The notes beneath the pieces are model-generated. The model did no database searches. It was not told the origin of the DNA and saw only the letters and a list, made by a program, of their open reading frames with translations. The translations under genes and the position numbers were made by a program. A stretch of 64,000 bases of DNA from Verrucomicrobiales bacterium (GTDB lineage: Bacteria > Verrucomicrobiota > Verrucomicrobiia > Verrucomicrobiales > DEV007), in assembly GCA_002698785.1 (NCBI GenBank), contig PAAG01000038.1, positions 62,001 through 126,000 of the forward strand. The letters are read 5' to 3'. Shown here in pieces: positions 23,861 through 59,768 of the stretch (its first letter is position 1; every line of letters starts with the position of its first letter).

Positions 23861-24855
23861 GCGAGCAGCGCATCGGGAATCGAGCCGATTTCGGATTCTC
23901 TGCTGGAACGTTGGAGAAGGCAGACAAAACCACCGGCGCCATTCGACCGATGTGGATAGATCCGATAGCTGGGAAATTCGCTGAGGGTTGACCGATATTC
24001 TGCCAAGTGCGGGACTTTCAAAGGGGTGAAGTCGGGATGATCTGCCACGAACTTTTCAATAGCTCCTTCGTTTTCCCGCTGGCTAAACGTACACGTGGAA
24101 TAGAAAAGGAACCCACCGGATCGAACCGTTTCGGAACAGGAGGAGAGGATTTTGCGCTGCCTCCTCGCGTTGCCCTTTACGATGGATGGATGGAAACATC
24201 CTTGCACATCCTGTCCTTTCGCGAGGAGTGATTGGCCAGAGCAGGGCGCGTCTACGAGGCAGAGATCAAACGCATGCCTGGCTTGTTCGGCCAATTCATG
24301 AACTGGCATTCGCTGGGTGTAGGCATTGGGGATTCGGCACCGGGTCAGATTATGACGTAGCATGCCGAGGCGCTTCCCTTCTACTTCGTTGGAAAGGAGC
24401 AGTCCGGGTTTCAGAAGAGTAGAGCAAAGTATCGATTTCCCGCCAGGGGCGGCGCAGGCGTCTAATACGGTGGGAGATGAATCGATTTGATCGCTCAGGG
24501 CGAGGAGCGCTGATCCAGTGAGAACGGAGGAATAGTCGAGGCTGTAGAGTAGTCCGTCCCGGTAGGCGCGTGATTTTCCCGCTTTCTCCTCCGGTTCCAG
24601 AAGGTCGATTTCCCCGGGGAGCCACGATGGTAAACCCTCCCGAGGCTGAAGTTTGAGTTCGTCGGTTCTCTCGCCGGAAGTCCAGATAACGGCGTTTCCT
24701 TTGGGGGGGGGAGAAAGAAGGGAGTCAAGAAACTCGATTTGCTCCGATTCCGCGTCCGGAAACAGCGCAATGGCGGTTTTCTGCATTAAGTTGGTGGGTT
24801 CTTTCCTTGCCATGACTCCGGGATGCGGTTCTATCCGTAATCGCCTTTCGATCAT
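23818..24855 (-). CDS. RNA 5-methylcytosine methyltransferase (RsmB/RsmF/NOL1 family)
   Basis: 345 residues from ATG 24855; ATGs at 24813 and 24786 are also possible, and the short 25-base gap to mrp slightly favours a downstream start. The SAM-binding motif is DACAAPGGKS. The catalytic pair is VDAPCSG (motif IV) and YSTCTFSQRENE, whose Cys is the nucleophile (motif VI). It methylates cytosine in rRNA or tRNA using S-adenosylmethionine; the target base is unknown. There is no fused PUA or NusB domain of clear type. A 9-base G run at 24703-24711 encodes SPPPK near the N-terminus. Confidence 0.87.
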   Translation of the reverse strand: MIERRLRIEPHPGVMARKEPTNLMQKTAIALFPDAESEQIEFLDSLLSPPPKGNAVIWTSGERTDELKLQPREGLPSWLPGEIDLLEPEEKAGKSRAYRDGLLYSLDYSSVLTGSALLALSDQIDSSPTVLDACAAPGGKSILCSTLLKPGLLLSNEVEGKRLGMLRHNLTRCRIPNAYTQRMPVHELAEQARHAFDLCLVDAPCSGQSLLAKGQDVQGCFHPSIVKGNARRQRKILSSCSETVRSGGFLFYSTCTFSQRENEGAIEKFVADHPDFTPLKVPHLAEYRSTLSEFPSYRIYPHRSNGAGGFVCLLQRSSRESEIGSIPDALLAYPVAPPSSIDSPE

Positions 24856-25961: not shown

Positions 25962-25995
25962 ATGGGGCGGGCCATCGCCATGGTACCCGCCCCAT
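25962..25995 (+). promoter_or_regulatory. GC-rich hairpin enclosing the sulfatase start codon
   Basis: ATGGGGCGGG (25962-25971) pairs with CCCGCCCCAT (25986-25995). An inner CCAT/ATGG stem (72-75 with 80-83) closes a CGCC loop, with TA bulged. The start codon ATG is 25994-25996, so its first two bases lie in the stem and the ribosome site is buried. No T-run follows, so it is not a standard terminator. Confidence 0.55.
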
Positions 25996-27385
25996 GAAAA
26001 AATCCCTCTCCTCCCTGATATTTGGTGCCCTTAGCCTGCTGGTTTCCCTGTCCGGGATATCGGCCGAAAAACCAAATATCATTTACATCCTTCTGGATGA
26101 CGCTGGATACGGCGATCTCAGTTGCTACGGGCAGACGAAATTCAGCACTCCGAATATCGACCGCCTCGCTACGGAGGGGATGAAGTTCACCCAGCATTAT
26201 TCCGGTAGCACGGTCTGTGCACCTACCCGTTGCTCGCTGATGACCGGAGTCCACGTCGGGCACGCTTATGTGCGTGGGAACCGGGAAGTGAAGCCAGAGG
26301 GGCAGGCACCCATGCCGGCTGATATTGTTACCATCCCACGTCTTCTGAAGAAGGCTGGCTACACTACCTCTATGTTCGGAAAGTGGGGACTAGGTGCGCC
26401 TGGTTCGGAGAGCGATCCGATGGAGCACTTTGACCGTTTTTATGGCTACAATTGCCAAAGGGAGGCACACACTTACTATCCAGATCATCTCTGGAGCGAT
26501 CGTGAGCGAGTCGAGCTCGATGGCGAGACGTACTCACACGATCTCATCATGGAGGAGGCGGAAGAATTTCTGCGGGAAAACAAGGAAGGTCCATTTTTCG
26601 CCTACCTGTCAGTAATCATTCCTCACGCCGCGATGCACGTTCCTGAGGATTACATGGCTCCTTTCAGGGAGAAGTTTCCCGAGTTTGAAGACACCATTGG
26701 GAGATACAGCGGTCCAGAGGTGCGGAATCCTATCGCAGCCTTTGCAGGGATGATGAAGAAACTCGACGACGGTGTCGGTGAGGTCCTTGCATTGCTGGAG
26801 GAATTAGGAATCGATGAAAATACCCTGGTGATCCTGAGTTCCGACAATGGTCCGCATCAGGAGGGCGGGCACGATCCTGATTTCTTCGATAGCAATGGTC
26901 CATTGACCGGCTACAAGCGCGACCTCACGGAAGGCGGCATTCGTGCGCCCATGCTGGCTCGTTGGCCGGGTAAAATTGAGGCGGGAACCGAAAGCGAATT
27001 GATCTCAGCGCATTGGGATATGCTTCCCACTTTCTGTGAACTCGCCGGGGTTGAGCCGACAGAAGAAACGGACGGTATCTCGATGGTGAATGAACTTCTC
27101 GGTGAAGAGGGGCAGGAAAAACACGATTACCTCTATTGGGAGTTTTACGAGCGCGGCGGAAAGAAAGCGGCTCGATGGGGAGACTGGAAGGCCATCCAGC
27201 TTAACATTGCCAAAAACCCCGACAGCCCCATAGCGATTTACAATCTCGCCAAAGATTTACAGGAAGAGAATGATGTTTCCGCCGACCATCCAGAATTGGT
27301 CGAAAAAGCCAAGGCCATCTTCGCCGAAGCCCACACGCCTTCTCCGAACTGGGAGTTCAAGGTGAAGGCAAAAAAAAAGAAGTAA
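25994..27385 (+). CDS. Secreted sulfatase (Cys-type, arylsulfatase family)
   Basis: 463 residues with signal peptide MKKSLSSLIFGALSLLVSLS. The metal ligands Asp35-Asp36 lie in ILLDDAGYGD. The formylglycine motif is CAPTR (Cys75-Arg79), so an activating FGE is needed; none is in the window. It resembles arylsulfatase A-type enzymes of marine Verrucomicrobiota that desulfate algal polysaccharides; the substrate is unknown. The 3' end encodes KVKAKKKK and contains a nine-A run just before the stop. The imelysin gene follows after two bases. Confidence 0.93.
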   Translation: MKKSLSSLIFGALSLLVSLSGISAEKPNIIYILLDDAGYGDLSCYGQTKFSTPNIDRLATEGMKFTQHYSGSTVCAPTRCSLMTGVHVGHAYVRGNREVKPEGQAPMPADIVTIPRLLKKAGYTTSMFGKWGLGAPGSESDPMEHFDRFYGYNCQREAHTYYPDHLWSDRERVELDGETYSHDLIMEEAEEFLRENKEGPFFAYLSVIIPHAAMHVPEDYMAPFREKFPEFEDTIGRYSGPEVRNPIAAFAGMMKKLDDGVGEVLALLEELGIDENTLVILSSDNGPHQEGGHDPDFFDSNGPLTGYKRDLTEGGIRAPMLARWPGKIEAGTESELISAHWDMLPTFCELAGVEPTEETDGISMVNELLGEEGQEKHDYLYWEFYERGGKKAARWGDWKAIQLNIAKNPDSPIAIYNLAKDLQEENDVSADHPELVEKAKAIFAEAHTPSPNWEFKVKAKKKK

Positions 27386-27420
27386 CGGTGGCTGATACCT
27401 GCCGGGATATCGTCCGGCAG
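27370..27420 (+). promoter_or_regulatory. Candidate -1 frameshift or slippage site linking sulfatase to imelysin
   Basis: Nine A residues (27370-27378) create in-frame slippery heptamers A AAA AAA (27370-27376) and A AAA AAG (27373-27379). Two codons later is the sulfatase TAA (27383-27385). In the -1 frame the reading runs GAA GTA ACG GTG and on through the whole imelysin gene. An SD-like AAGGTG lies at 27359-27364. A 7-bp stem CTGCCGG/CCGGCAG (27399-27405 with 27414-27420) lies downstream; its 19-base spacing is longer than usual. Confidence 0.4.
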
Positions 27421-28470
27421 TATGGCAAGATCGTTCACGCGACATACAGCGATTCTCTGTCAGAAGCGGAGCGTCTGGAAAAGGCCCTTCAAGCTTTTGT
27501 AGCCGATCCGACGGAAGAGACTCTGGCGGCGGCCAAGACAGAGTGGGTGGATGCGCGGCATCCCTACCTTCAGTCGGAGGCATTTCGTTTTTATGCGGGG
27601 CCAATCGATGACGAGGATGGGCCCGAGCCCATGATCAATGGGTGGCCGATGGACGAGTTCTACATCGATTACGTCGAGGGTTCTTCGGAGTCGGGGATCA
27701 TCAATGAGACTTCTGTGTTTCCTGAGATCACAAAGGAGCTGATTGCGACGATGAATGAAAAGGCGGGAGAGACGGCGATCACTTCCGGGTTTCATGCGAT
27801 CGAGTTTCTTCTCTGGGGACAGGACCACAATGATGATGGTCCCGGGGACCGTCCGGTTTCAGACTACGTTGATGGTCCAAATGCGGAGCGGAGGGGGACG
27901 TACCTGTTGGCTTGTGCAGATTTGCTTACAGATCATCTGGAGGGGCTTGTGGCGGAGTGGGCACCTGACCAGCCTGGGAATTTCCGAGCAGAGTTTGAAG
28001 CCAAGCCGCCAGTTGCTGCCGCTCGCGAGATTCTCTATGGGATCCACACGTTGAGTGGAAAGGAGCTGGCGGGAGAGCGACTTCTCGTTGCGTGGGACAC
28101 GCAGGCACAGGAGGACGAGCACAGCTGTTTCAGCGATATGACTCACCTCGATGTGCAGTGTGACGCCCAAGGGATCGCGAATGTGTATCGGGGAAGCTAT
28201 CGGAAGCTGGATGGGGGTAACGTCACCGGTCCGGGGATACGAGCTCTGGTGAGGACGTTACTTCCTGATCGTTTGGAGGAATTCGACGGGAAAGTGGCCG
28301 AAATGTTGAGAAATGTTAAGGTAATTCCTGCGCCGTTCGATCAGGCGATATTAGGGGATGATGAAAGTCTGGGACGTCAGAGCATTTTCTCGGCAGTGAT
28401 CAGTCTTGAGGATTTCGCGGCAATGCTTTCTGAACTGGACCGGGAGTTGGTCAGACGGCCCGGGCCATAA
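27388..28470 (+). CDS. Imelysin-family protein without its own signal peptide
   Basis: 360 residues read from GTG 27388. Helical imelysin/IrpA-like (M75) domain; the conserved GxHxxE motif is seen as SGFHAIEFLLWGQD near 131-144. Other landmarks are SEAFRFYAGPID (about 50-61) and ETSVFPEITKE. Such proteins sit in the periplasm or on the cell surface and are linked to iron uptake, but here the N-terminus MADTCRDIVRQYG enters the domain directly with no export signal. The frame is open upstream through the end of the sulfatase gene, which raises the possibility of a frameshift fusion. A bacterioferritin gene follows. Confidence 0.85.
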   Translation: MADTCRDIVRQYGKIVHATYSDSLSEAERLEKALQAFVADPTEETLAAAKTEWVDARHPYLQSEAFRFYAGPIDDEDGPEPMINGWPMDEFYIDYVEGSSESGIINETSVFPEITKELIATMNEKAGETAITSGFHAIEFLLWGQDHNDDGPGDRPVSDYVDGPNAERRGTYLLACADLLTDHLEGLVAEWAPDQPGNFRAEFEAKPPVAAAREILYGIHTLSGKELAGERLLVAWDTQAQEDEHSCFSDMTHLDVQCDAQGIANVYRGSYRKLDGGNVTGPGIRALVRTLLPDRLEEFDGKVAEMLRNVKVIPAPFDQAILGDDESLGRQSIFSAVISLEDFAAMLSELDRELVRRPGP

Positions 28471-34126: not shown

Positions 34127-34230
34127 AGCTTGGTGGGGGGGGAGCGGGTGCTTCCCTGTGCTACACCGGTCCGCAATAATTGGACCAGCGAAATCTTCGC
34201 CACGTTACGTTTCTGTGGGAAAGTGCCACC

Positions 34231-41714: not shown

Positions 41715-41810
41715 ATGAGTAAAAGTGCATTGCAGGGCAAAAAAAAGCAGATTAAAGAAACGTTTTACCCCGGCGGTGCCGAATACCGTTTGAGGGAGAT
41801 TGGGTTGTAA
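41715..41810 (+). CDS. Candidate 31-residue basic peptide upstream of mpl
   Basis: ATG-to-TAA ORF encoding MSKSALQGKKKQIKETFYPG then GAEYRLREIGL. It is basic at the N-terminus and ends 17 bases before the mpl start. No strong Shine-Dalgarno; GGAA lies about 13 bases upstream. Composition looks coding rather than random. It may be a real microprotein or a leader peptide for mpl. The rest of the 41574-41827 gap shows no other clear feature. Confidence 0.35.
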   Translation: MSKSALQGKKKQIKETFYPGGAEYRLREIGL

Positions 41811-59106: not shown

Positions 59107-59768
59107 TCTTCTCGGCTATCCCAGAATTCGGATTCGATGAGATCGTGACGTCTTACGATGCGTCGATAGAAGGTGAGCGTCAGTTCTTTTTTTTCTTTTT
59201 CGCTAAGTCTCCATTCGAGTTCCGAGCTTCGCAGGCGCTCCGTCAAGCGGGACAGCGCTATCGCCAAGGTGACAGAGATGTTGTAGCTCTGAGTAAATCC
59301 GTACATCGGCAGCCGCAGCGTCATATCTGCTGAATCAAGTGCCTTCTGAGAGAGCCCTTTTTTCTCTGTGCCAAAAAGCAGTGCGACCGGGCGGTCGAGG
59401 GGGAGGCTGGAAAGGTCGTAGCCATCCTCTGCTGGCGATGTGGCGACGAGTGTATAACCCCGAGCTTTCAGCGTCTCGAGACAGCGGGAGGTTTGATGAT
59501 AATGGTTCAGGGAAAGCCACTTGGAACTACCCATGGAAACCTCATTGTTTGGCTCGTACGCATATTGTGATTCCACGATATGAACGTCCTGGATTCCAAG
59601 GCACTCGCAGCTACGCAGGCAGGCACTGGCGTTGTGTGGCTGGTACACATCTTCCAGCATCACGGTGATGTGGCGTGTGCGTTCGGCGAGTACGGTATCT
59701 ATCTGTTCCTCTTTATTCGAAGTGATATACACGCGAAGAAGATCGATGAGTTCTTCGTCGGTCGTCAT
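59103..59768 (-). CDS. SpoU/TrmH-family RNA 2'-O-methyltransferase
   Basis: 221 residues from ATG 59768; the frame is open 65 codons upstream but that part overlaps the transporter region and looks non-coding. SPOUT knot motifs are VMLEDVYQPHNASACLRSCE (motif 1, N...R), LLFGTEKKGLS (2) and LPMYGFTQSYNISVTLAIAL (3). The IPMxGFxQSxNxSV form and length fit TrmH, which methylates G18 in tRNA. Its end overlaps the addB-like start, so it heads the addBA operon. The transporter gene ends 40 bases upstream. Confidence 0.88.
   Translation of the reverse strand: MTTDEELIDLLRVYITSNKEEQIDTVLAERTRHITVMLEDVYQPHNASACLRSCECLGIQDVHIVESQYAYEPNNEVSMGSSKWLSLNHYHQTSRCLETLKARGYTLVATSPAEDGYDLSSLPLDRPVALLFGTEKKGLSQKALDSADMTLRLPMYGFTQSYNISVTLAIALSRLTERLRSSELEWRLSEKEKKELTLTFYRRIVRRHDLIESEFWDSRED

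Follow-up and report, generated by a model that had tools for sequence, protein, structure and literature searches.

A conserved A9 run at a sulfatase-imelysin junction in Verrucomicrobiales as a candidate site of fusion by slippage

The orfA/orfB layout of IS elements, with fusion of the two frames by slippage, is a familiar arrangement. Slippage at A runs is itself a known mechanism, described for dnaX of Thermus and tssM of Citrobacter. According to passages of PMC1088944, transcriptional slippage at nine adenines (A9) in Thermus thermophilus dnaX puts about half of the product into another length, and the second frame of IS elements needs frameshifting for its expression. In Citrobacter rodentium tssM1, an A11 run just before the stop codon was reported to undergo transcriptional frameshifting of about 25% (part of PMC4256274). 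For slippage by the ribosome, a passage of PMC5009743 states that the sole tRNA-Lys of E. coli contributes to the shiftiness of its dnaX site and that Thermus has two. The part of PMC3143127 that deals with the imelysin superfamily describes signal or lipoprotein signal peptides on most members, a GxHxxE motif and a tie to iron uptake.

As a slippage fusion, the sulfatase-imelysin pair described here appears to be new. A search that covered few subscription papers found no publication on such a pair, nor on an exported domain in a non-mobile operon that relies on slippage for its start and leader, and the main text of PMC3711429 contains neither "sulfatase" nor "imelysin."

The sulfatase-imelysin junction in the window

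The window, by which we mean the whole 64,000-nucleotide stretch of DNA that was analyzed (genome G000), contains a sulfatase gene followed by an imelysin frame. An initial annotation had proposed that recoding at an A run fuses the secreted sulfatase to the leaderless imelysin. It had described an A9 run with two heptamers in the sulfatase frame near the stop, a -1 frame that reads GAA GTA ACG GTG and stays open through the imelysin, and an imelysin GTG codon 2 bases after the sulfatase TAA. Each of these was confirmed when the coordinates were checked on the sequence, and the features of the junction are as follows.

25994..27385, + strand: sulfatase gene, zero frame, 463 amino acids, ending in KVKAKKKK before the stop (open reading frame; PF00884, E = 2.1e-63)
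25994..26065, + strand: N-terminal MKKSLSSLIFGALSLLVSLSGISA of the sulfatase, a likely Sec signal peptide (translation inspected by eye)
26216..26248, + strand: CAPTRCSLMTG, with C-x-P-T-R, the formylglycine-type sulfatase motif (sequence)
27359-27364, + strand: AAGGTG, 8 bases before the second heptamer (sequence)
27370..27378, + strand: A9 slippery run at the sulfatase end, next base G (sequence)
27370-27376, + strand: heptamer A AAA AAA in the sulfatase frame (sequence)
27373..27379, + strand: A AAA AAG, second heptamer of the sulfatase frame and candidate site of a -1 ribosomal slip (sequence)
27383-27385, + strand: sulfatase stop TAA (sequence)
27379..28470, + strand: predicted trans-frame segment of the fusion (-1 frame), EVTV plus the imelysin domain to its stop
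27388..28470, + strand: imelysin (Peptidase_M75) frame from the first GTG, 360 amino acids, no signal peptide (PF09375, E = 1.9e-63)
27400-27406 and 27413-27419, + strand: 7-bp stem with one G-T pair (sequence)
27787..27804, + strand: GFHAIE, imelysin GxHxxE motif (sequence)

The sulfatase falls in class S1 (PF00884), both the domain and the C-x-P-T-R motif being present, and its activity is predicted from these sequence features; the best PDB match was 7ana (E = 9.8e-118). The downstream frame has the PF09375 domain and the GxHxxE motif of the imelysin/M75 family, and its own signal peptide or lipobox is absent. The match to PDB entry 7xrx (E = 5.2e-67) begins at residue 6 of 360, so that the window frame amounts to an imelysin domain with little ahead of it. 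A single AAG codon separates the second heptamer from the sulfatase stop.

Just behind the imelysin lie a ferritin-like gene (PF00210, 28605-29084) and then a BFD-like [2Fe-2S] gene (PF04324, 29105-29398). Neither was seen by eye behind the imelysin in the G004, G025, and G026 stretches (the G006 contig ends), and the iron link drawn from these neighbors is suggestive only. Other long + strand homopolymers in the window are G9 at 24703, G8 at 34135, A8 at 41739, and T8 at 59187. The window genome also has a second, distant imelysin with 37% identity in a 436-amino-acid open frame (L014 1501-2481; G000:C2:238027-239007).

The A9 run and the -1 frame are conserved where the imelysin adjoins the sulfatase

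The comparison set comprised 33 genomes of one genus, the window genome included. An imelysin ortholog was found in six of the 33, the other five copies being 55-71% identical to that of the window, and in five genomes (G000, G004, G006, G025, and G026) the imelysin lay directly behind the same sulfatase. The contigs of G025 (JARGNG010000134.1), G026 (JARGOP010000050.1), G004 (JARGNI010000035.1), and G005 (CAJXQE010000257.1) are labelled as Verrucomicrobiales MAGs, and accession prefixes point to a single sequencing project for the assemblies of G004, G025, and G026. The fused set is to be read as five genomes, one genus, and one origin.

Exactly nine adenines were present in the sulfatase tail of all five fused genomes, starting 12 to 13 bases before the stop, and in all five the -1 frame continued through the imelysin (in G006, to the contig end). 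Alignment of the junction in relatives, which the initial annotation had suggested as a check, thus upheld both the run and the frame and supported A-run recoding of this gene pair. The junction reads AAA AAA AAA, then CAG or CCG, then the stop in the four relatives, and GCA AAA AAA AAG AAG and the stop in the window. A zero-frame heptamer of the form X XXY YYZ occurs in every one of the five genomes. All have A AAA AAA, which is followed by C in the four relatives, and the window alone also has A AAA AAG. In G004, G006, and G026 a T precedes the run and creates a -1-frame TAA overlapping the first As; the -1 frame is therefore open only from the run, and the shift must occur on the run. A signal peptide or leader on the imelysin was absent in all five genomes, and the sulfatase N-termini of G026, G004, and G006 resembled that of the window by eye (the G025 contig starts inside the gene).

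At 70% identity or more, at least 12 sulfatase orthologs were found (that of the window and those of 11 other genomes), at most 50 candidates per genome being scored; the other 21 of the 33 genomes may hold further ones. Seven of those found have no imelysin directly behind them; G029, at a contig end, was dropped, leaving six that were readable. None of the six had A9, the longest A run in the tail being 8 in G005, 7 in G024, 6 in G028 and in G012, and under 6 in G007 and G009. The distribution of A9 with and without an adjoining imelysin (five of five versus none of six) gave a Fisher p of 0.002 with kinship ignored. Within 1.5 kb behind the six readable unfused sulfatases no imelysin remnants were found, the best tblastn E value being 0.67.

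A relative with an ordinary leader on its imelysin and no A run had been named at the outset as evidence that would speak against a fusion. The one relative with an ordinary imelysin leader, G005, has a different layout: the gene pair does not adjoin, and the imelysin follows the sulfatase at a distance of about 4 kb. The gene order there (L019 105-6522, G005:C257) is sulfatase, solute-binding protein, ABC permease, ATPase, imelysin, and a di-heme peroxidase-type gene. The G005 layout is possibly close to the pre-fusion state.

Starts of the imelysin were sought as ATG, GTG, or TTG codons in its frame, positions being given relative to the first base of the sulfatase stop. The earliest such codons were GTG at +5 in G000, GTG at +29 in G025, GTG at +26 in G026, TTG at +17 in G006, and ATG at +263 in G004; no position was shared across the five genomes, and by eye no clear Shine-Dalgarno (SD) sequence was present in the 20 bases before any of them. 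The ATG of G004 is about 82 residues into the imelysin domain with no ATG, GTG, or TTG earlier, and the earlier candidates are only of a rare type such as ATT (+62). With none of the three codons before the interior of the domain, frameshifting looks to be the sole ordinary route to the imelysin of G004. A separate leaderless imelysin made from the window GTG, also part of the initial annotation, is doubtful, since the relatives do not keep this start and G004 lacks one before the interior of the domain.

The N-termini of imelysin homologs were read at 107 loci, with some places counted twice. A hydrophobic N-terminus was found in 94, four were cut by a contig end, and nine fell under the N-terminal cut: the four fused relatives (L005, L016, L017, and L018), four with a leader by eye (L008, L013, L056, and L073), and L053, which was undecided. 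L001 to L004 were not counted, as they duplicate the window, L016, L017, and L018. The homologs came from 26 of 386 genomes of the order (E ≤ 1e-80), 13 of 74 genomes of the family (E ≤ 1e-100), and the best 80 of at least 570 GTDB matches; outside the genus only stronger matches were taken, and they were checked for a leader only. The window frame has no leader and nearly all homologs read outside the fused set have a hydrophobic N-terminus, in agreement with the earlier description of a leaderless member of a normally exported family.

Chance, drift, and descent of the run

The imelysins of the five fused genomes gave pS values of 0.66-0.79 and pN values of 0.13-0.28 (the G006 frame is cut by the contig end). 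With pS saturated and pN low, these values show purifying selection on the imelysin and mark it as functional and old. Twelve Lys columns were common to all five genomes (11 in the sulfatase and 1 in the imelysin), and only one of these had the same codon throughout, with none being all AAA; among all invariant two-codon residues, the same codon was found in all five genomes at 24 of 152. The A9 run persists despite saturated synonymous sites and drifting Lys codons.

Pooled over 11 sulfatases, Lys was encoded by 156 AAA and 124 AAG codons, so that the chance of three consecutive AAA codons is 0.17 per genome, or 9e-4 for four genomes if these were independent, which they are not fully. The Lys-rich tail is present in most unfused sulfatase orthologs as well and is thus raw material rather than signal, A runs being easily acquired. 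Nor is A9 unique as a conserved block: the five genomes also share identical stretches of 8 bases at three other places in the sulfatase and at one in the imelysin. The A8 run of G005, where no imelysin adjoins, likewise weighs against the slippage reading.

Runs of at least nine As are rare in G000, with a raw count of four separate runs on both strands of the 7.0-Mb assembly, and nine relatives had 3 to 34 matches to A9 or longer with overlapping matches counted. The other runs in G000 are two A10 near the starts of open frames and one A9 inside a frame that is kinase-like by eye (G000:C27:129490-129498; around 1501 of L136). The latter is far from the frame end and may also slip. The A10 at G000:C56:45141-45150 (around 1501 of L140) lies right behind a C run and shortly before a frame, sulfatase-like by eye, with the leader MRNVLLLLLALTGITFGQDKPNILFIA.

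In the sulfatase tree, in which 3 of 13 inner branches were well supported, fused and unfused copies were mixed: G012 (no imelysin, A6) grouped with G026 and G006 (99/98), and G028 (no imelysin, A6) stood beside G004 (92/92). In the imelysin tree the five fused copies formed a single clade (100/100), which excluded the G005 copy. The placement of G000 differed between the two, with unfused copies in the sulfatase tree (96/97) and with G025 in the imelysin tree (90/86), and G025 was likewise placed differently. The simplest story that these sequences suggest is one origin followed by several losses of the imelysin, with A9 lost alongside; exchange of the region between lineages may be the alternative.

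Slippage, its alternatives, and the known systems

On this comparative evidence, we consider it quite probable that slippage at A9 yields both the sulfatase and an exported sulfatase-imelysin fusion, two products of one expression unit. Most messages or ribosomes would end at the sulfatase stop and give free sulfatase, and slippage at A9 on a fraction of them would lead into the -1 frame and give the fusion. Either RNA polymerase would add one A, producing an A10 message, or a ribosome with two tRNA-Lys would slip back one base, and the extra A and the -1 slip would result in essentially identical fusion proteins. The fusion would leave the cytoplasm on the sulfatase signal peptide, and its imelysin part may join in iron handling at the cell envelope. 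Slippage in the cell, its level, the export of the fusion, and the role of the imelysin in envelope iron handling are what we infer from sequence. The initial annotation had graded the fusion as a minor product, which is a guess; at the A9 and A11 sites in the literature, alternative product amounts to about 50% and 25%, respectively (passages of PMC1088944 and PMC4256274).

Slippage of RNA polymerase appears slightly likelier than a -1 tandem slip of the ribosome, and both may occur. The best anti-SD pairing before A9 was -6.8 in G000 (12 bases) and G026 (16 bases) and -5.9 in G025 (18 bases), and was weaker in G006 (-3.9, 15 bases) and G004 (-3.8, 6 bases). TGGGAG, the strongest SD-like element in G000 and G026, consists of Trp-Glu codons that G007 and G012 have without being fused, and the element thus has no tie to the fusion. 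AAGGTG and the 7-bp stem had been put forward as stimulators. Both are present in the window, 8 bases before the heptamer and at 27400-27419, respectively; in the relatives AAGGTG did not recur at a fixed place and no shared stem was found at that place, and the two were rejected as shared stimulators. The z-scores for folding of the downstream 50 nt ranged from -0.2 to -2.7 with structures that differed among the five genomes, and G026 alone was strongly folded downstream (80 nt, z = -4.3). No conserved downstream stem-loop was found among the five, the consensus fold having a covariation term of +0.64 (a penalty) and double changes at 12 of 27 pairs.

The non-recurring stimulators, together with the conserved length of nine, make us lean to transcriptional slippage, and a recheck of the upstream SD-like elements made this lean a little weaker. 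In G000, ARAGORN (run on loci covering all 63 tRNA matches) found one tRNA-Lys, with anticodon UUU, and none with CUU. Given this sole tRNA-Lys UUU, slippage by the ribosome is also plausible, and it is more so at the A AAA AAG of the window than at the A AAA AAA C of the four relatives.

The absence of an ordinary start in G004 also bears on translational coupling, in which ribosomes would restart a few bases after the sulfatase stop. The imelysin would then be a protein of its own, leaderless and cytoplasmic, and A9 a by-product of the Lys tail. Such a restart could use the window GTG 2 bases after TAA, and in four of the five genomes a GTG or TTG follows within 29 bases of the start of the stop codon; furthermore, Lys-rich tails also occur without the imelysin, and three AAA codons in a row are not rare (0.17). 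However, G004 offers no ATG, GTG, or TTG before about residue 82 of the domain, the starts of the other genomes are unshared in place and by eye have no clear Shine-Dalgarno sequence, A9 is missing from all six readable orthologs without an adjoining imelysin, and the imelysin family is mostly exported (part of PMC3143127). Coupling is therefore unlikely to account for the locus.

A permanent fusion switched on and off by DNA-level phase variation, with mutation of A9 to A10 in some cells, would suit a homopolymer near the end of a gene and an exported protein, and a passage of PMC1088944 deals with slippage at A runs during replication. Free switching should give some A8 or A10, however, and exactly A9 was found in five of five genomes, which makes this switch very unlikely. 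The uniform run length also argues against an artifact, whether an error of assembly or sequencing at a homopolymer or a chance A run between unrelated neighbors. Although the assemblies are drafts, at least three of the five being from metagenomes, the same length and frame recurred in five genomes at 64-71% imelysin identity, and only four runs of A9 or longer were counted in 7.0 Mb; an artifact would thus be a most improbable explanation.

Slippage at A9 remains our preferred reading. A further step, which we regard as possible though rather doubtful, is that A9 serves as a fixed-ratio device by which one secreted enzyme comes both free and with an iron-binding module attached. The imelysin would be made only by slippage and would rely on the sulfatase for promoter, start, and signal peptide, with a ratio that may answer to growth or iron. 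If this were true, a free-standing exported gene would have come to depend on slippage within a non-mobile operon and remained so over long divergence. If the fusion itself is real, one gene would give two exported proteins, and a whole domain with neither start nor leader of its own would live off slippage. Gene finders would call two genes here, placing the imelysin in the cytoplasm or dropping its start. The genus would also offer a small natural experiment on the origin of slippage-dependent fusions from Lys-rich tails and on their decay after loss of the second domain, and this suggests a search for headless domains behind other secreted enzymes with Lys tails.

Among the known systems, the IS orfA/orfB layout is similar in that expression of the second reading frame would depend on frameshifting. 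The genes here are a sulfatase and an imelysin, however, and by eye no mobile-element gene was recognized among the nearest neighbors in the fused genomes. E. coli dnaX shares with the window the A AAA AAG heptamer and a sole tRNA-Lys UUU, as found in G000 and described for E. coli in part of PMC5009743, but here the SD-like elements vary in place and strength, there is no common stem, and the relatives have A AAA AAA C. T. thermophilus dnaX is likewise a non-mobile gene with A9 on the coding strand in which extra As lead to two products (passages of PMC1088944 and PMC5009743); there the zero frame is the long one and slippage shortens the protein, whereas here slippage would be predicted to add a whole unrelated domain. 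In C. rodentium tssM1, according to part of its description, extra As extend the protein by a C-terminal domain whose coding sequence lies past the stop, and two length variants result. The domain appended in tssM1 is the C-terminus of the protein itself, whereas the domain considered here belongs to a separate, normally exported family, is without a leader, and recurs behind the run in five genomes.
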